Of a stretch of 64,000 nt of DNA, positions 1-12,671 are shown piece after piece. The notes beneath the pieces are model-generated. The model was given only the letters and a program-made list of their open reading frames with translations. It was not told the DNA's origin and ran no database searches. This stretch comes from Phaeodactylum tricornutum CCAP 1055/1 (lineage: Eukaryota > Bacillariophyta > Bacillariophyceae > Surirellales > Neidiaceae). The stretch is from positions 558,001-622,000 of the forward strand of contig NC_011672.1 in assembly GCF_000150955.2 (NCBI RefSeq). The letters are read 5' to 3'. Numbering within the stretch: the first letter of the stretch is position 1; each line of letters begins with the position of its first letter. The position numbers and the translations under genes were made by a program.

Positions 1-3000
1 ACAAGACCTTGTCAGTTGAGCAGAAAGCGGCAGAAATCCAGGAGTCCCTCAACTGGTGGACCAAGAATGCCGCTCGCCATAGCCTCAACCTCGCCGAGGT
101 CAACGAGTCGGTCGAAAAGATGAAGAAGGTCAATCATCTATTCGACTGGTGGCAGCACAGGGATATTCCATTGGAGGACTATTTTGATCCGTTTTCTGAT
201 CCACGAGCCGCTGAGAAGCTAGCAAAGGAAATGGAAGCTGCGCTTCAAAAGTACATGAAGTCTGGGGATATAGTATTTTCCTTGGACGATTTGAGCCTGG
301 TTGATCCCTTCATCAAAGTGAAGCATGCGCTAATTAGCATCTTGTCGAAGGAAAGCTCCCCGGAATCCCTCAAGCTCGATCTCGACGACGTCGTCACTTG
401 GTACAAAAGACATGGCTCGTCATTCGATCCTTCCAATGCTTCTCCTGACGATGTTGCCATGTTCAAAAAAGTACAGCAACTGTTTTCAGTCTGGGGAACC
501 TCGGACCTGCCGAACGTCACCGAAGCAGAAAGGGCAGCCAGAGAAATGCTAGACGCGGCCGATTTTTGGTTACGTAATCGAGATGTAGCCGAAGAATCTT
601 TAGAGTCATTCGAACTTGAAAAGCTCCGAAAAATAAAGCATATTTCGCTTGACCTTCATGCCCTCGCTCTAACTGGCAAACAGACGAAGATCGCCGCGAA
701 AAAGCTTCAAGAAGTCATAGGATGGTGGCGCTTGAAAGGTGGAAAGTACGATCCGCAAACGAGCACCCCTGAAGACGTCGCTCGGTTTGAAAAGTTGCAA
801 ACCATCATGACCGACTGGAAGCTGAATCCTTCTTTGGTTGCGGAGAAGACAGCAAGTGAGATGGCAGAGGCGTTGAGTTGGTGGACCCGAAACAATCACG
901 GAATGGATCCTGAGAAATACGAAAAGGGAGACCTGCCGATGTTCTTGAAAGTACAGCAGGCGATGCAGGTATGGCAAACTAAGGGCGTTTGCAGTCTTTT
1001 AGAGGACCAAGCTGCTTTGGATGCCAAGGAGATTGAAGCAGATCTAAGGCACTGGGAGACTATCAAAGACTCGGATACTGCATCGTTCAAAACGCTGGAT
1101 CAGTTGGTGTTTAATCGTCTGAAGAAAGTATTTTACAAGTTTCATAATAAGAAAGAATACCCCGAAGATTTCATTTGCTTCATGCGCAATCCAAAAGCCA
1201 TTGTTGAGGTCCGGGACACGCTCCAGGAATGGAAGCTACTCGGTGGCAGAGTGAATATGTTAGACATGCCATCGATCACAATCCCGAAAATGAAGAGGTC
1301 TATGTCAAATTTCCTTGACGCTTTGATAGATTGGCGACGTTCAAAAGCCTTCCAAAATCTTTCTGTCGAAGAGGCCGAACGGCTAGCGAAGGAAATGCTA
1401 GGGTCCCTAAACTGGTGGACAACAAAGGGCGGGAAGAAATTCGATCAAAGGCAGGCTCTGCAAGACATGGAACCTGATATGCTCTTTGTCCGAAACGTTC
1501 AGCAGACGATGGCAGAGCTCGTTGATCCCAGGGCCCACTCCGATAGAGACAACCTCGATCTCAGCTACCTTTCCATCGATCTTTCTTCCTCCAAGACCAT
1601 GAACCTCATTGAGACCCTGGAGAAGCAGGTCGGGTGGTTCCGTGCGCACGGAAATAATATCAGTTCCCATACAATTGACGAAGAGTTGAAGTATCAGGAT
1701 GCGAAGAGGTTGGCACAGTGGTGGGCGAAGTATGGTAAACCGCTGGACTCGAAAAGAGCGACAGACGCTTCCGCGGTGATTTTGCGAATTCTCGAAAACA
1801 GATTTGACGAAGATTCTCCAAAGGCAATCAACGCATTTGAAAGACTCTCTCACATGTGGTCCCCTGGTCGAAAGCTAGGTTGTTCACACGACAATGCAAT
1901 TGCAAAGGACATACACGATTCTCTGACCTGGTGGCGTGCGAAGGCTTACATCATCGATACGACCAACCTGACGGCTCCCGATACAGCAAAGATCGAAAAT
2001 CTAAAGCAGCTGGTTCAATGGATAGAACAGAACGGAGCTGGCAATACCCATGATAACGTCGACAACGCGCTAAATTGGCTGCGAGGGCCGAACTCTGATG
2101 ATCTGACCATTGATTTGTACAGCAATATGAATGATATTCTTGACTGGTTTCAGAATGACAAAAAGCCAGGGTCGAATTTCCCTTCGGATGACAATGGAAA
2201 GATGAAGAAAGTGCAGGAAAACGTATCCTGGTGGGAACGAAATCCCAACAAGCAAAGCGACCCCCCTTTGGGCGATCTAGGTGCACTCTACGCTCGATAT
2301 CAGACACTCCGACCTTTAATCGAATGGTGGGATACTAGGGGTAAAGACTTTGCAGTTCGAAACGGACAAATGGTTGTAGATGAGGTGGATGACATCGATT
2401 TCCAGCTGAAACAGACTCTCCACTGGCTTGAAAAGCACGTAGAAGAAAAATCTGTTCCACATCACAGTGGAAATGATATTGACCTTTTGGGGAATACTTT
2501 AAGCTGGCTCCGTGGCGAAGATTCCGGTTCAAGCGTACTCGGTGAGCCAACGGGGGTCAAGAAATCGAAGAAACCGTCCTTTCTCGGGCTTCCGAGAAGT
2601 AGTCTGACGCCGGAAGAAAGGCGTGCTGCGGAGATGGAAGAAGCTCTGAGCTGGTTGAGAACCAACGATCTGAGCTATGACCACCCCGGCATGGACGATG
2701 CTTCGCTTGCAACTATCCGCACCATCAACTCAATTGTTCCCGGTGCATCGATGAAAGACCCAATAGAGGTCGTGAACACGATGGAGAATGCCCTAGACTG
2801 GCTTCGCAATAATGACACGAATAAAGATTGGAGCTTGGATGATCTCTCTGTGGCGTCATCGAGAATAGTCAGAGGCAATGAGGCAGTTGGCCCCCCTACG
2901 ACCCTAGAAGAGGAGCGAGCTCGAGATATGGAAAGTGCTCTTAATTGGCTTCGAAACAATGACGCAACTCAGGGATACGACGCTCCCTCCTTCGGCTCGT

Positions 3001-6000
3001 TTCGAACTATTGGTGATAGTAGCCGTGGTCTCGGAGCAATTCCAGAGAACAGTAACGCAAGAAACATGGAGAACGCACTAGATTGGCTGCGAGCGAACGA
3101 TGCAGGAATTAATTTCGGTGACGATGATCTTTCGTCGTTCAATCCAGATAAAGTCGGACAGAAGGGGATGTCAGCAACTGCCGAGCAGCAGCGAGCTAGC
3201 GATATGGCAGGGGCTTTGGAGTGGTTGAGATCGAGCGTTCCTTCTGGAAGCTCTGTGGCAGATCTGTCGGCGAACTCTTATGGTACGGGTCCTTCAAGCG
3301 ACCAACTGTACAGCGGTGGTGACATTGGAAATGCTCTGAATTGGTTGCGTTCTGAAATTCCGAGCCTAGGGTTTGTTGACGATTTGTCTGTCGTATCTGG
3401 AAGAAACCCCTCACAAGGGCCATTATCAGAGTACGAAAAACGCGCGAAGTCCATGACAGATGCATTGAGTTGGCTTCGAAATGGCGAAGACGAAATTGGA
3501 CTACAAGACCCTTTGTCTATCTCTTTCTCGGATATGCAAAACCGAGGGCTTGACCAGGATCGAAGCAAGCCGTTGGGAATGACCGACGCAATGGACTGGC
3601 TGCGTAGCAATGTAGCAGGCTTTGCTACAGACGGGCTGTCGGATTTATCCAAAAATAATCTGGATGGCGCTCCACTTACAGTAGAGCAGCAACGCTCAAG
3701 GGCCATGGACGATGCCCTCAATTGGTTGAGACAGAACAACCCAGACGACCTCGATGAAACAGAGCCAATAGGATCATCGAAGGACAGAAAGATGCCGACG
3801 ATCGAAGAACAGAAAGCACAAATCCGAGCGAAGCAGTTAAATAGTGCTCTCCTATGGCTTCGAAACAACAACCCGAATGTTAATGATGTAGACGACGAAA
3901 CACTCGACGCCTTCAGAAGTCTTGCTGGGCTTCCTCTACCTGGTATAGAGCTCACGCCTGATCAAAAGAGAAAGGCAATGGAAGACTGTCTGACATGGCT
4001 TCGAACCAATAAGCCAAGTTTGGAAAATATCGATGATGACACTATCGAATCTTTTGCTCGGCTCACTGGATTGCACCTGCCTAGTGATTACACGTCGCCC
4101 GAAGAGAAGGCTCGACTGCTGGAGACTTCGTTGGAGTGGCTTAGAAACAACAATTTAAAAACTCAGGAGGTCGATGATCCAACTGTGTTGTCGCTAGCCG
4201 GCGTGGTTGGCATCGAATTACCTCGGGGGAAGTTGACTGCTTCCCAGAAGAAAGAGACAATGGACAATGTATTGAACTGGCTTCGGAACAACAAACTAGA
4301 TCCAGCAGATGTCAACACAGAAACACTTCAAAGATTAGTGTATCTGACAGGAGTTACCATGCCAAAGCCTCCTATGTCAACAAAAACGAAGAAAGCAATC
4401 GTCGATAATACTCTGAATTGGGTTCGTCGGAACCGTCCCGACTTAGGGTCGGTGGATGATGCCACGATCTCGGCTTTCAGTAGGCTAGCAGGAATACCTC
4501 TCCTTGAACATCGACCGTCCACACAAGATAAGATTCAAGTCGTTGAGAATTTTTGTAATTGGCTTCGTAACACTGAGGTGGACGCATGTAATGTTGATGA
4601 GCCGAGTCTTTTTGCTCTGACGAAGCTGGCGGGTATCCCGATGCCGAGGGGTCGCCTTCCCTCCAAGGAAAAGGAACGGCTTATTGTAGAGGCCTTGGAA
4701 TGGTTGCGAAAGAATAGCCCCGATAGTGGCACTTTTGATTACTCGTGTCTCGCAGCTTTCGAAGCTATCCCTGGGATTCCTATACCACGTGGTCTTTTGG
4801 GCGTGGAGGATAGGCAGCAGACAATTGACGATGCTGTCTCTTGGCTCAGGGACAACGAACCGACCGTTGATGCCCTTGATTTTTCCTCGATTGCTTCGCT
4901 TCGGACTCTAGCAGGTCTACCGATAACGAGAGGACGTCTCGACATAGAAGAGAGATCCAGGGCAATGGAGGATGCCATCAAATGGCTTCGCAGCAATGAC
5001 CCAAGGATCGAGGACGTTGAAATTACGACACTTGCCGCTTTTGCAAATTTGGCGGGGATACCAATCCTCGGAATGCCTCTGTCTATGGAAGAAAAGAGGG
5101 AGGTCTTTACGGATCTTTTGAATTGGATACGCAAAAACGACCCTGACTTACGTGACGTCGACGAGAGTACTGTCAACGCATTTGTCAATCTCGCCGGGCT
5201 ACCGTTGCCACAAGGAAGGATTCCTGCGGAAGATAAGAAGAAGCTCATGGTCGGCCCAGTCAACTGGCTGCGAAGAAATAGGCCGCAAGCAGAGAATGTT
5301 GATGGTCCCACAGTCCAGGCCCTTCGCAATCTTACTGCGCTGTCTCCCCCAATAACTACAGCGTTTGAGAAGGAGAATACTCTGGAGCAAATCTTGAATT
5401 GGATCAGGAAAACTAGTCCAAAAATCGATGGGAAAAAGCTCAATGATCCTTCAGTTTTGGCGATCGCCAATTTGGCAGGTCTTCACCCTCCAAACTCCCG
5501 ACTAACTCCTACAGTGAAGAACAATGCCGTCGACCAAGCATTAGAGTGGCTTCGAAACAATGATCCTGACCCGGAAAACGTTGACTTCCCAATGATAGCT
5601 GCACTAGCAAATCTCTCTGGGGCTCCCATGCCAAAAGGAACACGCAGTGTGGGGGACAAAGCGAAACCGATGGAGGAAGCTCTGCAGTGGCTGCGTGAGA
5701 ATACACCATCACTTGATGACATTGATGAACCCATCTTTCAAGCGTTTGTGAATCTTCCAGGTGTCCCACCACCGTCTCGGAACTTGTCGTCTGAGGAGAA
5801 AAAGAGCATCATGGAAGAAGCAATTGACTGGGTTCGAGCGCACGATGTTGCGCCTGAATCTATCAATCAGGCCACGTTACGATCCTTTGCCAACGTTACT
5901 GGACGTCCCTTGCCCAAAGGTTTACTCACTCCAATCAAGAAACAAAAAGCCATGGAGCATTTTCAACACTGGCTTCGGAACAACGACAAGGACTGGAGTG

Positions 6001-9000
6001 TGGTTGATGACCTTGATGTCAGGGTATTCGCAAAAGTTGCTGGCATTCCTATGCCCCGTGGCGAAAATAGTGACGTTGTGGACGAGGCTATGACTTGGCT
6101 CCGCAGCAATGAGCCTAGACTAGAAGATCTTGACGATCCAACAGTTTTAGCGCTGAGCAATCTTTCGGACCTCCCACTTCCTCAAGGAAAACTTTCAGCG
6201 ACGGATAAGAAAAAGGCATTAGAGGACGCAATCGAGTGGCTTCGAAACAACGATCCGAAACAGCCGAGACTCGTCGATGGACCTACCTTGAAGGCATTGG
6301 CTTCGCTCGCTGGGATCCCCGTCCGCGGAAGCTTTCTTTCACCTGGTCGTAGAGAAGAAATTATTGAAAACTCAATAACTTGGCTTCGCGAAAACGAGCC
6401 GCAGGTAGACAGTCTCGACACACCCTCGATGAAAGCATTGTGCAATTTGGCAAATGTCAATTTGCCTCACGGCCGGATATCCACCGAGGATAAAAAGCAG
6501 GTGCTGGAGGACGCCACGACATGGTTTCGCAGCAATGTCCCTCGGGAGAGCGATATTGATGCATCGCCTCTTCGGGCCTTAGCACGGCTCGCAGGAATTC
6601 CTATGCCACATGGGAGAATCCCGTTCCATGAAAAGGTGAACACTTTGGAAATAGCCGTGAATTGGATTCGGAAGAATGACCCTCGTCTTGACAATGTTGA
6701 AGACCCAGATATTAGAGCCTTAGCAAATCTAATAGGAGTGCCAATTCCTTTCTCGAAGCTTTACCGAGCGGAAGAGAAGGCTGCCCTGGATCAGGTGGTG
6801 AGCTGGCTTCGGAAAAACGATTTAAAGGAACCGGTGTATGACGTAGATGAGCCAACGTTTACAGCACTGACAAACCTTGCCAGTGTGGTTCCCAGGGCGA
6901 TACTCCCACCGACGGCAAAAAACCATGCGATAAATGACAGCCTAGAATGGCTTAGAAACAACGATCCTAAGGCCCGCGACGTGGACCATCCAACCCTTCG
7001 AGCGCTCGCAAATCTAGCCGGTGTCCCGGTTCCTCAAAGTCGGCCTTCGTCACACCGCACACAACTAATTCTGGATGACATTGTGGCATGGCTGCGCAAT
7101 AATTCGCCAAACCCCGAAGATGTCGATGACCCAACCTTGGTGGCCCTTCTGAGTATTGGAAATATTCCAGTTCCTCGGGAAGCGATGGCCCTGGTCGACA
7201 AGACGGCAGCCATGGACAAATGTGTAGATTGGCTTCGCAACAACAAGGTCAATCCCTCAGATGTGGACGATCCGACAGTCAACGCTCTTTGTAGTTTGGC
7301 AGGGACTCCAATTTCTCGAGGCATTTTGTCGGAATCACACAAAAAGAAAGCGCTTGACGAATCCTTGAGGTGGCTCAGACACAACGACACGGATCTAGAG
7401 GTCTTGGACGACCCCACCATTCAAGCTTTGGCAAATGTTGCTGGAATACCTGTTGCGATTTACAAACCAGAGGATATCTTGAGAGACGCGTTGACATGGC
7501 TTAGAAATAACGAGCTCGATGGAGGCAGTGTCGATGACCCTACTCTTGCCGCGCTTAGCAACCTGACCGGGATTTCTCTGCCGAAAGGCGAGCTGTCGAA
7601 TACTAAGAAGGTAGAAGTTGTGGAGGAAGCAATGGACTGGCTTCGCAATAACGAGCCTGAGGCTGACACCGTGGACACTCCCACCATACAAGCCCTTGCA
7701 AATATTGCAGGTATTCCGACGCCGCGACTACGGATATCTCCGGAACAGAAGAGTGAAGCAATGCGTGATATCATGGACTGGCTTCGAAACAGCAATCCAA
7801 AAGTAGAAGACGTTGATGATTCTACTGTTGACTCACTGGCTAATCTTGCAGGGCTGCCGATGCCTAATTCAAACAATGCAACAAGCAAAGAGCTCGAAAA
7901 CGCACTCGACTGGCTCAGGAGTAACGATCCGAGGCCGCAGAATATTGACGATCCCACTTTGGCATCATTCACCGCGATCGCTGGAGTCCCAATGCCCAAA
8001 GCGGCTTTTACCCTCGAAGAGAAAGCAAAAGCTATCGAAGACACAGTAGCCTGGCTTCGATCCAACACTGTGAAACCTGAAGATCTCGACGAGCCAACCA
8101 CGGTCGCCCTTATGAACGTTACCGGAACTTCACCGCGATCGTTCACACCAGCACAAAAGGAGGCGATCGTCGAGCAGGCCCTCACCTGGATTCGAAACAA
8201 CACCCCCCGCCCTGAAGACTTGGAGGATCCGACCATCCAAGCACTGTCGAACATTGCTGGAATACCATCGCCTACAACAAAGATGAGCTCACCTGAGAAA
8301 GCGAGAATGCTCGCTGAGTCCACGGTTTGGCTTCGATCAAACAGCCCTATAGTAGAGAATATTAAAGACCCTGCACTCGCCGTATTTGCGAAATTACCGG
8401 GCGTAAATGTTCCTCGACGTCCTCTGTCTCTTGAACAGAGGACAAAAGCAATGAATGAAGTTCTGGATTGGCTACGTAACAACTCCCCGAATCCGGCCGA
8501 CATGGACGAACCTACCGTCTCGGCGCTTGCTAATATTCCAGGACTTCCCCAAACTCGTGGGGTTGTGTCGCCTGAGCAGACTAAGTCCATTGTCGACGGA
8601 GCTGTTGATTGGCTTCGTAACCGAGGCCCGAAAATGGAGGAGCTAGACGAGCCAACGATATCTGCCTTTCGTACTTTATCGGGTCTTCCCATGCCCGTTC
8701 ATCTTCTTCCTGACGAGAAAATTAAACTGGTAGAAGACGCAGTGAACTGGCTACGAAACAAGGAGCTACCAATCGATCAGACTGATGATCCTACCATACA
8801 GGCGTTTGCGAACATTGCAGGGCTACCTGCTCCCACGAGACGCTTGCTTCCGGACGATAAAAAAGGTGCCTTGCAAGACGCAGTTGATTGGCTTCGGAAC
8901 AATAAAGTGAGTCCTCTCGAGCTCGACGATCCGTCAATTGCAGCGCTTGCCAGTCTTGCTGGCATTCCGGTTGCGCAAGAAAAGATGTCACCCGTTGAGA

Positions 9001-12000
9001 AAGGACGGATTGTGGAGGAATCGTTGGATTGGTTGCGAAACAACGGAGCACAACCGAAAGCCGTGGAGGACCCCGATTTGGTCATACTTGCTAATCTTGC
9101 CGGAGTTCCACTACCTCTCACCCGTCCACCACCCCAAGAAAGAGCGAAGGCTCTGGAGAAGTCGATGGACTGGCTTCGAAAAAATGATCCTCCTCTTGTG
9201 ACTCTTGACGGACCAACGTTGACACTTTTGTCAAATCTGTCCGGAATTCACATACCACAAAGTACAATGGATCCGGATGAAAAAGCGGTAGTACTAGAAA
9301 AGTCGCTCGATTGGCTGCGCCACAAAAATCCACGCCCGACTGATATCGACGAACCTACTTTAAATGCATTGTCACGGTTGGCTGGGGTACCTTTGCCCCG
9401 TGCAGAATTTCCTAAGCACCCAAAAGAAGATCAGCCCGAAAATTCTATAGACTGGCTTCGTCAAAAGCAGCGAAAGCCAAGCTTTGGTGAGCCGGTTCCG
9501 TCAAGCTTGGAAAACGTGCCAGGAAGCCCCCTGATTGTATTGCCGAACGAAGAAGATCAATTATTGGATAGGGCCTTGGACTGGCTCCGAAACAACGACC
9601 CTCCGCTCATTGACATCGACGAGCCAACTCTCGAAGCTTTCACAACCCTCACTGGAGTTCCGATGCCATGCGCTGAATTGTCGCCCGAAGACAAGGCCTC
9701 ATTACTCAACGATGCCCTTGACTGGCTTCGTAACAATGATCTCAAACCCAGCGATATCGATGAGCCTACACTTCAAGCCTTTACTAATCTTGCTGGCGTT
9801 CCAACTGATCAAAGGCCATTGCAGCCTGATCAAAAAGCCAAACTTGTTGAGGAAGCAATTGACTGGCTCCGAAAGAACAATCCGCAACCAAATGATATCG
9901 ACAAACAAACTCTGCTCGCCTTCGCAAATCTGGCCGGGCTTCCTCCCCCCACGCCAAAATTATCTCCGAAAGAGAAGGCAGCTGCGATGGAAGAAGCTAT
10001 CAATTGGCTTAGAAAAAATGAACCCATTCGGATCGTCGACGAACCAACGAGTTTCAAGCCAAAAAACATTGATGGAATCCCGGTGCTACCTGGAGATACT
10101 ATTAGAAATACCGATACTGTAATCGACTGGCTTCGCAACCACGGGGCTACAATTCCTGAAGAATACCTTTCTTCTCCACAGTACGTGAATCTACCAAAAG
10201 CGGTCATGCCAAGACGCTCTGAATTTCCAGAAGAGAAAGTAAAGGCGATGGAAGAAGCCCTAGACTGGCTCCGAGACAAGGATCCTCAAACGCCACACAA
10301 GGAACCAGACATTCTGACATTGAATAATTTCCCTAATATTCCGCCCGATGCATCCCCCGAGTTCCAGACTCAAGCGATCGAAGATGCGCTGAATTGGCTC
10401 AGGAACAAGGCTCCCATTCATCCTGATGATTCAATTGGTAACATTCCATATGACAGAGTCCCCCACACCGGCCTCTCTCGTTTTCCTTACGGGTTGGACA
10501 CCCCTAGCGAGGATCACCCATCCCTCGATTGGAACAGAAATCGCTCTGTACCAGGGGTTCAAGGTCCCAGCCCGTACGGACTAGATGACGGACCCGAAGG
10601 GCCACCATCCATGCAACGCGCAATTGGGCCGGATGCTCGTCCAGACGAATCCCCGGGCTGGGACTGGGCTCGAAATCGACCGGCAGCAGGGCACGAGGGG
10701 CCTAATCCATACAACCTGGACAATGGACCGAACGGCCCAACATCAGTTCCTCGATCTGCCATATCAGGAGACTTTCCAGAAAATCATCCTGGATGGGACT
10801 GGGCTCGCAACCGTCCTATACCAGGAGGCGAAGGCCCCACTCCATATGAGCTCGGTGACAGTCCCCATGGGCCAACATCGATGCCAAGGGGACCCGATGG
10901 AAGCGACCTTCCAGAAGATCATCCGGGCTGGGACTGGGCTAGGAACCGCTTCCCTCCCGGTGTAAAAGGTCCCAATCCATACGAACTGGGAAACGGACCA
11001 AACGGGCCAACATCCATGCCACGAGGTATCCAGGAAGGCAATAATCCCGATGGGCATCCTGGTTGGGACTGGAATCGCAACAATCCAGTTCCAGGAGTCC
11101 AAGGTCCTGGTCCTTATGATTTTTCAGGTCCTTTTGAAGGTCCACTTGGTCTGGCCCCAAGACCACCGCCTGAAAGTCCCGTGGCTTATCCGGAAGTCGA
11201 CTGGAATAGAAATGGACCCCCACGAGGGATCGATGGCCCTGCTGGAATATCTTTCTCGATACCGCCCGAAGGCCCAACATCAATGCCCCGCTATCCGACG
11301 GAGACTCCTGCGGACTACCCAGCCGTAGATTGGAACAGAAACAAGCCCATCCCGGGGAATGCGATAGAACCGTACGAAAATCCCGATGTTGGCGATCAAT
11401 CGGCTCCATGGGCGACGGAACCTGACGAAGAAACTGAAGACGGCCAAGGGCCTAGACCGATGGCTGTCCCCGAAGACCTATACAGCGAGCCCGAGACCGA
11501 AGAATCGAAACAGGAGCCGAAGGGCACCGTCTTTCCGGTATGGCTCTGTTTGACTCTCGCCGTCCTTGCATCAGTAGTTGGTGCCAATTCAGTGTCGGGT
11601 CCTGCCACTGCAACCGGTGCTCCACCTAATTTGCTGTTCGATCCAACAGCTCCTCTTGGTGGCACCCCACCAGTTCTACCGAATCTCCCTGTCGTACCAG
11701 CTGTACCATGTCCTCAAGATGCTGCCTGCGAATTTATAATGGGATCTGTCGATCGTTTCCTCCCTCCCCAGACTCGTGCTCTTATTAATGTACCCGGCAC
11801 CTGCCAGAATTGGTCTCGAGAATGGCTTCGAACTGGGAAGGATATTATGGAGTTTCAAGTCGAGCGTATTCGACAGCGTTTTGCGATGGCACTAATGTAT
11901 TGTGAGTTCAACGGAGACAATTGGCTTGAGAGTGAGCTCTGGGTCTCAGATCTACATGAATGCGATTGGTACACGATGATTGGTGTCGACCCTTGTGGTC

Positions 12001-12671
12001 GACGTGAACAATACCAGATTATACGAAACTACGGCCAGCAAATGCGTGGAACGTTGCCTCCAGAGATCTCTATGCTTTCGTCTCTTTGGGAGATTAGCCT
12101 CTCCGACAACCTGATCGAAGGAACGATACCTTCTGATTTCTACAAACTTTCTGAGCTGGACACGCTGTCACTTTCTTTCAATCTCTTCAAAGGAACCATT
12201 CCCGAATTTATGTGGGAGTACGAAGATATGAACTACATGGACTTGGCGTACAACTTTTTTACTGGCACCATCCCAAACACAGTGCACTTGACGGAACCGA
12301 ACCTTAACGTCTTATTTGTCGAGAACAACGATCTTGCGGGAACAATTCCGGAGACGTTCGGAGATCTAAACTGGAAGCGTTTGCATATGGACGGCAACCA
12401 GTTCAATGGACCAATACCTGCGGGTATCAACTCGCCAAGGATGGAAGAGCTAATGTTGCACAACAATCAGCTGACTGGGGGCTTTCCAGCCTCAGCTTTC
12501 GCGAACGATCTTCCGACCGGAACGTCAAAACTCCGCCAAGTGACAATTTATAACAACGACGTTACGGGAGATGTCAACGAGATGTGCAGTCTTTTTACGA
12601 CTGGTAGTCTCGAGACTTTTGAAGTCGACAAGGATAAAGTTCTTTGTGACTGCTGCGCTGGAGCACCTTAA
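1..12671 (+). CDS. Giant WLRNN-repeat transmembrane LRR protein (5' end outside window)
   Basis: One frame is open from the window edge (first full codon at base 3) to the TAA at 12669-12671, over 4,220 codons. The Leu codon at base 9 is no start: Lys-Thr before it fits the repeat pattern, so the true N-terminus lies upstream. In order it holds WW-type repeats (to about 2600), irregular WLR repeats (2601-3789), about 48 regular repeats of roughly 47 residues (3790-10470), about seven Pro/Gly-rich repeats with DW(N/A)RNR (10500-11400), an acidic linker, one hydrophobic span (about 11538-11591), a Cys-containing domain and plant-type LRRs ending in a CDCC motif. No kinase domain or intron is seen. 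Single-span proteins with such LRR domains are known in diatoms, where the LRR part is thought to face outside; that would leave the repeat part cytosolic. I know of no function for the WLRNN repeats. A cell-surface or adhesion role is inference. Confidence 0.85.
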   Translation, partial: KTLSVEQKAAEIQESLNWWTKNAARHSLNLAEVNESVEKMKKVNHLFDWWQHRDIPLEDYFDPFSDPRAAEKLAKEMEAALQKYMKSGDIVFSLDDLSLVDPFIKVKHALISILSKESSPESLKLDLDDVVTWYKRHGSSFDPSNASPDDVAMFKKVQQLFSVWGTSDLPNVTEAERAAREMLDAADFWLRNRDVAEESLESFELEKLRKIKHISLDLHALALTGKQTKIAAKKLQEVIGWWRLKGGKYDPQTSTPEDVARFEKLQTIMTDWKLNPSLVAEKTASEMAEALSWWTRNNHGMDPEKYEKGDLPMFLKVQQAMQVWQTKGVCSLLEDQAALDAKEIEADLRHWETIKDSDTASFKTLDQLVFNRLKKVFYKFHNKKEYPEDFICFMRNPKAIVEVRDTLQEWKLLGGRVNMLDMPSITIPKMKRSMSNFLDALIDWRRSKAFQNLSVEEAERLAKEMLGSLNWWTTKGGKKFDQRQALQDMEPDMLFVRNVQQTMAELVDPRAHSDRDNLDLSYLSIDLSSSKTMNLIETLEKQVGWFRAHGNNISSHTIDEELKYQDAKRLAQWWAKYGKPLDSKRATDASAVILRILENRFDEDSPKAINAFERLSHMWSPGRKLGCSHDNAIAKDIHDSLTWWRAKAYIIDTTNLTAPDTAKIENLKQLVQWIEQNGAGNTHDNVDNALNWLRGPNSDDLTIDLYSNMNDILDWFQNDKKPGSNFPSDDNGKMKKVQENVSWWERNPNKQSDPPLGDLGALYARYQTLRPLIEWWDTRGKDFAVRNGQMVVDEVDDIDFQLKQTLHWLEKHVEEKSVPHHSGNDIDLLGNTLSWLRGEDSGSSVLGEPTGVKKSKKPSFLGLPRSSLTPEERRAAEMEEALSWLRTNDLSYDHPGMDDASLATIRTINSIVPGASMKDPIEVVNTMENALDWLRNNDTNKDWSLDDLSVASSRIVRGNEAVGPPTTLEEERARDMESALNWLRNNDATQGYDAPSFGSFRTIGDSSRGLGAIPENSNARNMENALDWLRANDAGINFGDDDLSSFNPDKVGQKGMSATAEQQRASDMAGALEWLRSSVPSGSSVADLSANSYGTGPSSDQLYSGGDIGNALNWLRSEIPSLGFVDDLSVVSGRNPSQGPLSEYEKRAKSMTDALSWLRNGEDEIGLQDPLSISFSDMQNRGLDQDRSKPLGMTDAMDWLRSNVAGFATDGLSDLSKNNLDGAPLTVEQQRSRAMDDALNWLRQNNPDDLDETEPIGSSKDRKMPTIEEQKAQIRAKQLNSALLWLRNNNPNVNDVDDETLDAFRSLAGLPLPGIELTPDQKRKAMEDCLTWLRTNKPSLENIDDDTIESFARLTGLHLPSDYTSPEEKARLLETSLEWLRNNNLKTQEVDDPTVLSLAGVVGIELPRGKLTASQKKETMDNVLNWLRNNKLDPADVNTETLQRLVYLTGVTMPKPPMSTKTKKAIVDNTLNWVRRNRPDLGSVDDATISAFSRLAGIPLLEHRPSTQDKIQVVENFCNWLRNTEVDACNVDEPSLFALTKLAGIPMPRGRLPSKEKERLIVEALEWLRKNSPDSGTFDYSCLAAFEAIPGIPIPRGLLGVEDRQQTIDDAVSWLRDNEPTVDALDFSSIASLRTLAGLPITRGRLDIEERSRAMEDAIKWLRSNDPRIEDVEITTLAAFANLAGIPILGMPLSMEEKREVFTDLLNWIRKNDPDLRDVDESTVNAFVNLAGLPLPQGRIPAEDKKKLMVGPVNWLRRNRPQAENVDGPTVQALRNLTALSPPITTAFEKENTLEQILNWIRKTSPKIDGKKLNDPSVLAIANLAGLHPPNSRLTPTVKNNAVDQALEWLRNNDPDPENVDFPMIAALANLSGAPMPKGTRSVGDKAKPMEEALQWLRENTPSLDDIDEPIFQAFVNLPGVPPPSRNLSSEEKKSIMEEAIDWVRAHDVAPESINQATLRSFANVTGRPLPKGLLTPIKKQKAMEHFQHWLRNNDKDWSVVDDLDVRVFAKVAGIPMPRGENSDVVDEAMTWLRSNEPRLEDLDDPTVLALSNLSDLPLPQGKLSATDKKKALEDAIEWLRNNDPKQPRLVDGPTLKALASLAGIPVRGSFLSPGRREEIIENSITWLRENEPQVDSLDTPSMKALCNLANVNLPHGRISTEDKKQVLEDATTWFRSNVPRESDIDASPLRALARLAGIPMPHGRIPFHEKVNTLEIAVNWIRKNDPRLDNVEDPDIRALANLIGVPIPFSKLYRAEEKAALDQVVSWLRKNDLKEPVYDVDEPTFTALTNLASVVPRAILPPTAKNHAINDSLEWLRNNDPKARDVDHPTLRALANLAGVPVPQSRPSSHRTQLILDDIVAWLRNNSPNPEDVDDPTLVALLSIGNIPVPREAMALVDKTAAMDKCVDWLRNNKVNPSDVDDPTVNALCSLAGTPISRGILSESHKKKALDESLRWLRHNDTDLEVLDDPTIQALANVAGIPVAIYKPEDILRDALTWLRNNELDGGSVDDPTLAALSNLTGISLPKGELSNTKKVEVVEEAMDWLRNNEPEADTVDTPTIQALANIAGIPTPRLRISPEQKSEAMRDIMDWLRNSNPKVEDVDDSTVDSLANLAGLPMPNSNNATSKELENALDWLRSNDPRPQNIDDPTLASFTAIAGVPMPKAAFTLEEKAKAIEDTVAWLRSNTVKPEDLDEPTTVALMNVTGTSPRSFTPAQKEAIVEQALTWIRNNTPRPEDLEDPTIQALSNIAGIPSPTTKMSSPEKARMLAESTVWLRSNSPIVENIKDPALAVFAKLPGVNVPRRPLSLEQRTKAMNEVLDWLRNNSPNPADMDEPTVSALANIPGLPQTRGVVSPEQTKSIVDGAVDWLRNRGPKMEELDEPTISAFRTLSGLPMPVHLLPDEKIKLVEDAVNWLRNKELPIDQTDDPTIQAFANIAGLPAPTRRLLPDDKKGALQDAVDWLRNNKVSPLELDDPSIAALASLAGIPVAQEKMSPVEKGRIVEESLDWLRNNGAQPKAVEDPDLVILANLAGVPLPLTRPPPQERAKALEKSMDWLRKNDPPLVTLDGPTLTLLSNLSGIHIPQSTMDPDEKAVVLEKSLDWLRHKNPRPTDIDEPTLNALSRLAGVPLPRAEFPKHPKEDQPENSIDWLRQKQRKPSFGEPVPSSLENVPGSPLIVLPNEEDQLLDRALDWLRNNDPPLIDIDEPTLEAFTTLTGVPMPCAELSPEDKASLLNDALDWLRNNDLKPSDIDEPTLQAFTNLAGVPTDQRPLQPDQKAKLVEEAIDWLRKNNPQPNDIDKQTLLAFANLAGLPPPTPKLSPKEKAAAMEEAINWLRKNEPIRIVDEPTSFKPKNIDGIPVLPGDTIRNTDTVIDWLRNHGATIPEEYLSSPQYVNLPKAVMPRRSEFPEEKVKAMEEALDWLRDKDPQTPHKEPDILTLNNFPNIPPDASPEFQTQAIEDALNWLRNKAPIHPDDSIGNIPYDRVPHTGLSRFPYGLDTPSEDHPSLDWNRNRSVPGVQGPSPYGLDDGPEGPPSMQRAIGPDARPDESPGWDWARNRPAAGHEGPNPYNLDNGPNGPTSVPRSAISGDFPENHPGWDWARNRPIPGGEGPTPYELGDSPHGPTSMPRGPDGSDLPEDHPGWDWARNRFPPGVKGPNPYELGNGPNGPTSMPRGIQEGNNPDGHPGWDWNRNNPVPGVQGPGPYDFSGPFEGPLGLAPRPPPESPVAYPEVDWNRNGPPRGIDGPAGISFSIPPEGPTSMPRYPTETPADYPAVDWNRNKPIPGNAIEPYENPDVGDQSAPWATEPDEETEDGQGPRPMAVPEDLYSEPETEESKQEPKGTVFPVWLCLTLAVLASVVGANSVSGPATATGAPPNLLFDPTAPLGGTPPVLPNLPVVPAVPCPQDAACEFIMGSVDRFLPPQTRALINVPGTCQNWSREWLRTGKDIMEFQVERIRQRFAMALMYCEFNGDNWLESELWVSDLHECDWYTMIGVDPCGRREQYQIIRNYGQQMRGTLPPEISMLSSLWEISLSDNLIEGTIPSDFYKLSELDTLSLSFNLFKGTIPEFMWEYEDMNYMDLAYNFFTGTIPNTVHLTEPNLNVLFVENNDLAGTIPETFGDLNWKRLHMDGNQFNGPIPAGINSPRMEELMLHNNQLTGGFPASAFANDLPTGTSKLRQVTIYNNDVTGDVNEMCSLFTTGSLETFEVDKDKVLCDCCAGAP
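3..2600 (+). repeat. Zone A: long degenerate WW-type protein repeats
   Basis: Coding repeats of about 65-75 residues with a core like EALSWWTRNN, then a middle stretch ending in VQQAMQVW or a similar Trp helix. Copies are strongly diverged, so the duplications look old. Two WLRG copies near 2080 and 2500 bridge to the next zone. Confidence 0.7.
2601..3789 (+). repeat. Zone B: irregular WLRxND repeats
   Basis: About nine units keep the (M)xxALxWLR(N/S)N helix but have variable Ser/Asp/Gly-rich spacers with DDLS-like motifs. The LAGIPMP element of zone C is missing. This zone looks like an intermediate between zones A and C. Confidence 0.75.
3790..10470 (+). repeat. Zone C: about 48 regular 47-residue WLRNN repeats
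   Basis: I counted about 48 units of about 141 nt each. The consensus runs EEKxxAMEDALDWLRNN, then DPxPxDVDDPT, then LxALANLAGIPMPRG. It reads as two short helices joined by an acidic loop and closed by a Pro-rich turn. The DNA around TGGCTTCGAAACAA recurs, but units differ at many sites while the residues are kept, which argues for selection on the protein. The last four units decay at the 3' end. Confidence 0.85.
10500..11400 (+). repeat. Zone D: Pro/Gly-rich DWNRN repeats
   Basis: About seven units of about 45 residues carry W(D)W(A/N)RNRPxPG, then GPxPYxL, then GPTSMPR. The Trp-Arg-Asn core echoes zone C, but the rest is Pro/Gly-rich and probably extended. It sits between the helical repeats and the membrane span, so a flexible stalk is a fair guess. 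Confidence 0.75.
11538..12560 (+). other. Membrane span and LRR domain of the giant protein
   Basis: The hydrophobic segment at about 11538-11591 (VWLCLTLAVLASVVGA) is the only strong membrane span in the visible protein. A Cys-containing domain with SREWLRTG and HECDWYTM follows, much like the N-cap found before plant LRRs. From about 12040 four to six repeats of the LxxLxLxxNxLxGxIP type follow. The orientation is inferred from family resemblance. Confidence 0.75.

Follow-up and report, generated by a model that had tools for sequence, protein, structure and literature searches.

A 4,500-residue diatom protein with an unnamed WLR-type repeat array ahead of a predicted membrane span and plant-type LRRs

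We analyzed a 64,000-nucleotide stretch of the Phaeodactylum tricornutum genome (the window), which opens with most of a giant gene. Window positions 3-12671 (+) form one open frame of 4,222 codons, cut on its 5' side by the window edge alone. When the frame was extended upstream in the assembly, it was open from C4:557079, with a first ATG at C4:557169, 831 bp ahead of the window. The full product has 4,500 amino acids, a mass of 501 kDa, and a pI of 4.86. A preliminary description had reported more than 4,200 codons without an intron; the unbroken giant frame stands, and the lack of introns can be stated only in the form of that unbroken frame. The same description had proposed extending the gene upstream in search of more repeats or a signal peptide. 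The extension supplied a start codon (C4:557169) and more tryptophan runs of zone A, and no signal peptide by hydropathy. The protein divides into the following parts, with zone limits drawn by eye and positions given in window coordinates.

1..12671, + strand: part of the gene inside the window; 4,500-codon gene with in-frame coding signal, its stop codon ending at 12671.
Residues 1-85: head, net charge +6.
1..2588 in the window, starting at window -576, + strand, residues 86-1140: zone A, with 28 tryptophan runs.
2589..3824, + strand, residues 1141-1552: zone B, with nine W[LIVF]R units of irregular length.
3825..10082, + strand, residues 1553-3638: zone C, with 45 WLR units, each predicted to form two helices.
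10083..11348, + strand: C/D link with three WLR units, followed by zone D (residues 3761-4060, window 10449-11348), which has seven Pro/Gly-rich DW[NA]RN motifs and 21% proline and is in part a 135-bp DNA repeat.
11349..11519, + strand, residues 4061-4117: juxtamembrane segment, acidic and proline-rich (17 D/E and 2 K/R in 57 residues).
11520..11585, + strand, residues about 4118-4139: predicted single membrane span, by hydropathy, taken as an uncleaved signal anchor.
11586..12668, + strand: proline-rich stalk, then a plant-type LRR domain with cysteines; LRR part from about 11724 (residue about 4186).

Over window 1-12671, each of the other five frames is interrupted by 70 to 252 stops, with no open run longer than 412 codons. 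Codon statistics trained on zone C gave positive in-frame values for zones A, B, C, and D and for the span plus LRR part (zone C, as the training set, is not an independent case). Across the same parts, the other two frames of this strand gave negative values. For the 85-residue head, the in-frame value was about zero. An antisense open frame of 410 codons (window 7460-8692, - strand) faces zone C and is perhaps a by-product of repeat codon use. Elsewhere on the contig, two adjoining - strand frames (L009:1626-2570 and L009:3303-4112; C4:549826-552312) are clearly similar to each other, with, for example, RTEQFNVELAARRYATYWEHRVELFGPEKAFLPLTL in the first. They look like a tandem duplicate of a CRAL-TRIO-like protein.

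The dominant feature of the protein is its tryptophan-centered repeat. The full protein contains 62 W[LIVF]R motifs. Zone C holds 45 of them and zone B has 9; another 4 lie in zone A, 3 in the C/D link, and 1 in the LRR part. Tryptophan runs over zones A to D number 98 (28, 10, 46, 3, and 11). The preliminary counts of 57 WLR-type units before the span and 48 units of the zone C type were both recovered exactly, the former from zones B and C plus the link and the latter from zone C plus the link. Zone C is the most regular part, with 34 of its 44 intervals measuring exactly 47 residues. Tryptophan pairs at a lag of 47 occur 34 times in zone C, compared to a maximum of 6 over 2,000 random placements.

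We estimated the age of the array from the 34 regularly spaced units out of 45. These share a mean amino acid identity of 32.7%, and at four-fold codons common to the regular units, third-position identity is 27.8%, compared to 25.3% expected from composition (4,469 comparisons). All six arginine codons are in use for the Arg of W-[LIVF]-R across the 45 units. This codon spread is the independent evidence, because W and R themselves are fixed by the choice of motif. Neighbors in the list of regular units are 35.6% identical, and units 2 to 12 places apart are 31.6 to 33.7% identical. The only DNA-level tandem repeat that Tandem Repeats Finder detected in the gene lies in zone D. With synonymous sites near saturation and the unit pattern retained, zone C is therefore an old array without recent DNA expansion, and its protein pattern is maintained by selection.

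The repeat has no second copy among the best candidates that our own-genome search scores. A zone C query of 126 aa matched no other gene (best outside match, E 0.21). Queries from zone A (328 aa), zone B (337 aa), zone D (174 aa), and the head (first 255 aa) also found this gene alone; the best outsider, for the head query, had an E value of 0.48.

The other zones relate to zone C to different degrees. Zone B gave a summed score of 153.8 bits against the zone C profile, and by this measure its units are related to those of zone C. In zone A, each of the 28 tryptophan runs closes a helix-like stretch (e.g., EMAEALSWW), and many are about 30 residues apart. Zone A totaled 9.6 bits against the zone C profile, where the best of 1,000 shuffles reached 7.2 (476 shuffles gave any match), which is suggestive of a relationship. 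Neither the 862 in-window residues of zone A nor the N-terminal 337 residues matched a Pfam family at E values up to 1. Zone D shares a D-W-x-R-N core with zone C and could descend from its units, though its composition is Pro/Gly-rich and the zone C profile did not match it. Its tandem repeat (window 10770-11021, 135 bp, 75% matches) is the sole DNA-level tandem repeat reported for the gene, a sign that zone D may have arisen later than zone C.

We predicted the structure of zone C with AlphaFold2, using alignments drawn entirely from the array itself (11 rows for a four-unit job and 22 rows for a two-unit job). Mean pLDDT was 83.5 for four units and 83.7 for two (about 72 to 84 over the five models of each job), with moderate pTM values of 0.54 and 0.65, respectively. 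In the models, a unit consists of a 17-residue helix (the SPEEKxxxMEEALDWLR region) and an 11-residue helix (the DPTLxALANLA region), linked by an extended GIPMP segment. The four-unit model, covering the three to five adjacent units that the preliminary description had proposed to fold, thus yields two helices per unit. Foldseek returned no matches at E values up to 0.001 for either model against the PDB or for the four-unit model against viral models.

The preliminary description knew no named repeat family for this unit, and our searches agree: no Pfam family covers the unit convincingly, and the PDB gave no convincing match in sequence or fold. For the profile searches that it had proposed with all 48 units, we used profile A1, built from 30 of the 34 regularly spaced units after removing four by eye as shifted or degenerate, and no known repeat family was convincingly matched. 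(In alignment A3, the first leucine is written as M in two rows, its codon having been taken for a start.) Named alpha-solenoid repeats (TPR, HEAT, ARM, PPR, and others) did not rise above the Pfam cut-off, and a search of NCBIfam produced no hit over its cut-off. PknG_TPR, which represents the helical repeats of a bacterial kinase, appeared once in Pfam (E 9.3e-4; 18.5 bits against 27). DUF2388, DUF6570, and Erythro_esteras passed whole-protein cut-offs because weak stretches over many repeats add up; they fell below the cut-off or were absent in four- and two-unit pieces, and we judged them spurious. Against PDB sequences, the top match of a two-unit profile was the rRNA methyltransferase 3dou (61 profile positions aligned, E 0.0068), which we judged to be chance, and a one-unit profile gave nothing better than 0.2. 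We also asked whether the unit arose from AxxWLxxxDP, a motif of the LRR N-cap; the profile comparison gave a probability of 1.6% and no support, in a weak test with only 3 caps from 14 frames.

Searches of prokaryote, viral, and phage collections yielded no convincing relative. A pattern scan found six stretches in prokaryotes and none in viruses. Two of the six carry WLRNN pairs in translation, one low-complexity and one LRR, and none was matched by the repeat profile. The pattern needs CTN for the first leucine and exact WLRNN pairs and finds six pairs in this window, so many relatives would escape it. A tblastn search of phages gave no convincing relative among eight weak records (best E 0.08; query coverage at most 50%). 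A literature search returned nothing on this protein, and the WLR repeat goes unmentioned in the available portions of three diatom LRR accounts (PMC6261938, PMC9054022, and PMC5485032).

The C-terminal part belongs to a much more familiar class. The single membrane span of the preliminary description is borne out by a 19-residue hydropathy of 2.24 at residue 4121, compared to 1.56 for the next best position in the protein. Beyond a 47-residue stalk without K/R, Pfam identified LRR_1 (2.7e-15) and LRR_8 (7.2e-9). The best PDB match is a plant LRR receptor kinase (2.2e-96), and plant LRR receptor proteins head the best 60 of 118 matching chains; the LRRs are thus plant-type, as first described. 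Protein kinase families were absent from Pfam results at E values up to 1 for the in-window frame, its ends, and the N-terminal 337 residues. Pfam gave no enzyme or signaling domain that we regard as real in any part of the protein, and we found no known cytoskeleton-binding domain.

The last 380 residues matched 92 places in the own genome, including this gene itself and often several places per gene. Of 19 related LRR loci, 11 show an N-terminal region, a span with a hydropathy of at least 2.0, and then LRRs; because L014 and L016 overlap, these loci represent 10 genes. In L041, the span lies after the LRRs. The other seven have no span of at least 2.0 in the piece read, which is possibly incomplete. 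In the 11 loci with the shared order, the span begins at residue 92 to 423 of the piece (some are cut on the 5' side) and is preceded by 0 to 4 tryptophans. As judged by these matches, the C terminus is an ordinary diatom membrane span plus plant-type LRR module.

This arrangement raises the question of which side of the membrane the repeat occupies. The N terminus is not hydrophobic (best 11-residue hydropathy in the first 40 residues, -0.49; signal peptides were judged by hydropathy only). Cysteines number 11 in the 4,117 residues N-terminal of the span, compared to 10 in the 362 residues C-terminal of it. Such a bias fits an oxidizing environment on the C-terminal side only and thus a cytosolic repeat. 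We place the repeat in the cytoplasm because of this distribution, the lack of a visible signal peptide, and an LRR type known from extracellular domains. The K/R-free stalk agrees with this placement; the positive-inside rule is weak here because the inner flank is acidic. Some paralog pieces begin with moderately hydrophobic stretches or lack their 5' side, so the topology is not settled by paralogs. A single-pass type II topology is likely, with the repeat in the cytosol and the LRRs lumenal or outside. The preliminary description had envisaged a very long repeat filament on the opposite side of the membrane from the LRRs; these same features favor the opposite sides, and the filament itself is conjectural.

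Our best reading, held at somewhat less than even confidence, is that of a giant spacer or tether in the cytoplasm with a type II membrane anchor. The first ~4,100 residues would remain in the cytoplasm, with zone C strung out as a long series of small two-helix modules, zones A and B probably built in a similar way, and zone D serving as a Pro/Gly-rich linker. The last ~360 residues, stalk and LRRs, would face the secretory lumen or the cell exterior, and the LRR domain may bind a partner there, whether on the surface or within a secretory compartment. The many near-equivalent units could extend far and offer numerous weak binding sites to a partner in the cytoplasm, the cytoskeleton being one example. 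The tether role is uncertain, and it is from the anatomy that we infer a mechanical one.

Other readings concern either the nature of the units or the role of the whole protein. One proposal makes every unit a degenerate ubiquitin-binding UBA domain. Pfam lists UBA_7 at E values up to 1 for 6 of 11 four-unit zone C pieces, and one of these (window 5472-6020) scores 27.9 bits (E 2.3e-6), which is 0.9 bits over the cut-off of 27. However, that score is a sum of partial matches in which no single stretch passes alone, and the best stretch covers profile positions 26 to 45 of 48, i.e., the last helix. The remaining four-unit pieces reached at most 19.3 bits or were unlisted, and two of four natural two-unit pieces matched below the cut-off, at 16.9 and 19.4 bits. 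In the predicted units, the stretch needed for UBA helices 2 and 3 forms the one continuous 17-residue helix, rather than separate short helices as in the three-helix UBA, and no UBA entry is among the best 50 of 71 and of 139 PDB fold matches. We consider this proposal very improbable. A neutral expansion lacking a function of its own would agree with repeat pieces that match this gene alone in its genome, and is harder to reconcile with a unit pattern kept while synonymous sites near saturation and with the lack of visible recent expansion; it is the least probable reading, with only a slim chance of being right.

The protein might instead be a receptor whose LRRs sense a ligand, such as a sexual or environmental cue, and whose array offers signaling proteins many docking sites in the cytoplasm instead of acting as a mechanical tether. 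Many near-equal units suit multivalency. It has been suggested that kinase-less diatom proteins with a span and LRRs receive pheromones or mediate adhesion (PMC6261938), and receptor-like LRR genes of Pseudo-nitzschia respond to sexual cues and shift expression during sexual reproduction (PMC5485032). The lack of a credible signaling or enzyme domain counts against a signaling platform, as does the regular 47-residue spacing, which a dock would not need (an argument rather than a test), and we regard it as unlikely though a serious possibility. In a related proposal, W/R-containing helices of a membrane-anchored scaffold would act as multivalent stickers that condense a cytoplasmic client. The 98 tryptophan runs, and a zone D that keeps the DWxRN core, would serve this purpose, whereas zone C units are predicted to be folded (mean pLDDT about 84) and not short stickers in disorder, leaving the scaffold improbable. 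Very long repeat proteins are often extracellular, and this one could be an adhesin with its repeat at the surface or in mucilage and its LRRs cytoplasmic or cleaved. Artificial upstream splicing of 332 donor/acceptor pairs gave 61 candidate starts with a short hydrophobic stretch (best 11-residue hydropathy, 2.04); these stretches are about ten residues, which we judged too short, and the frame has no visible signal peptide. The cysteine bias and plant-type LRRs also speak against an outside repeat, and we rate the adhesin as quite improbable.

The cytoplasmic spacer or tether can be carried one step further. In raphid diatoms, the unnamed helical repeat might make up the cytoplasmic side of a giant membrane-spanning mechanical linker that connects the cytoskeleton to an LRR receptor or adhesin at the surface; we offer this as a speculation that is rather unlikely to hold in full. 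Diatoms move, adhere, and mold silica through membrane-linked machinery in which the connectors that cross the membrane are poorly understood. An anchored repeat protein of 500 kDa, from what appears to be a transformable model diatom, is a direct candidate for this role. The repeat, for its part, may represent a new fold, a proposal that can be tested on about 48 naturally varied copies of a single 47-residue module.

The protein is real, well delimited, and undescribed in the sources searched, and it is unusual in length and repeat. To call the whole an undescribed system, as the preliminary description suggested, overstates the case, since the C-terminal module falls within a large class of diatom proteins with a span and LRRs, part of which has been described; for the repeat and its length, no description was found in those sources. 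By their description in PMC6261938, members of this class such as MRP2 and MRM2 of Pseudo-nitzschia multistriata have, like this protein, a span and LRRs and no kinase domain. In Nitzschia putrida, PMC9054022 ranks LRR proteins as the most common predicted secreted proteins and suggests a role in attachment. The 11 own-genome loci share the order of N-terminal region, span, and LRRs, and differ in what precedes the span: in this protein, a repeat-bearing stretch of about 4,117 residues. Plant LRR receptor-like kinases (GSO1, FLS2, and others) are alike in LRR sequence; here, in contrast, no kinase domain was matched and the LRRs are C-terminal to the span. UBA_7 and other UBA domains resemble the unit in the one-helix sequence AxxWL, and the rest of the domain is unmatched.

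In overall layout, a parallel can be drawn with the nesprin-type giant anchored rods, in which a giant N-terminal array of helical repeats is followed by a single span near the C terminus and a short lumenal portion. Set side by side by description, this protein would share that layout. It differs in that no spectrin or KASH family appeared in Pfam at E values up to 1, and the putative lumenal part is an LRR domain. Read as a mechanical linker, it would parallel, in a protist and with unrelated components, linkages of the nesprin or integrin/talin type.
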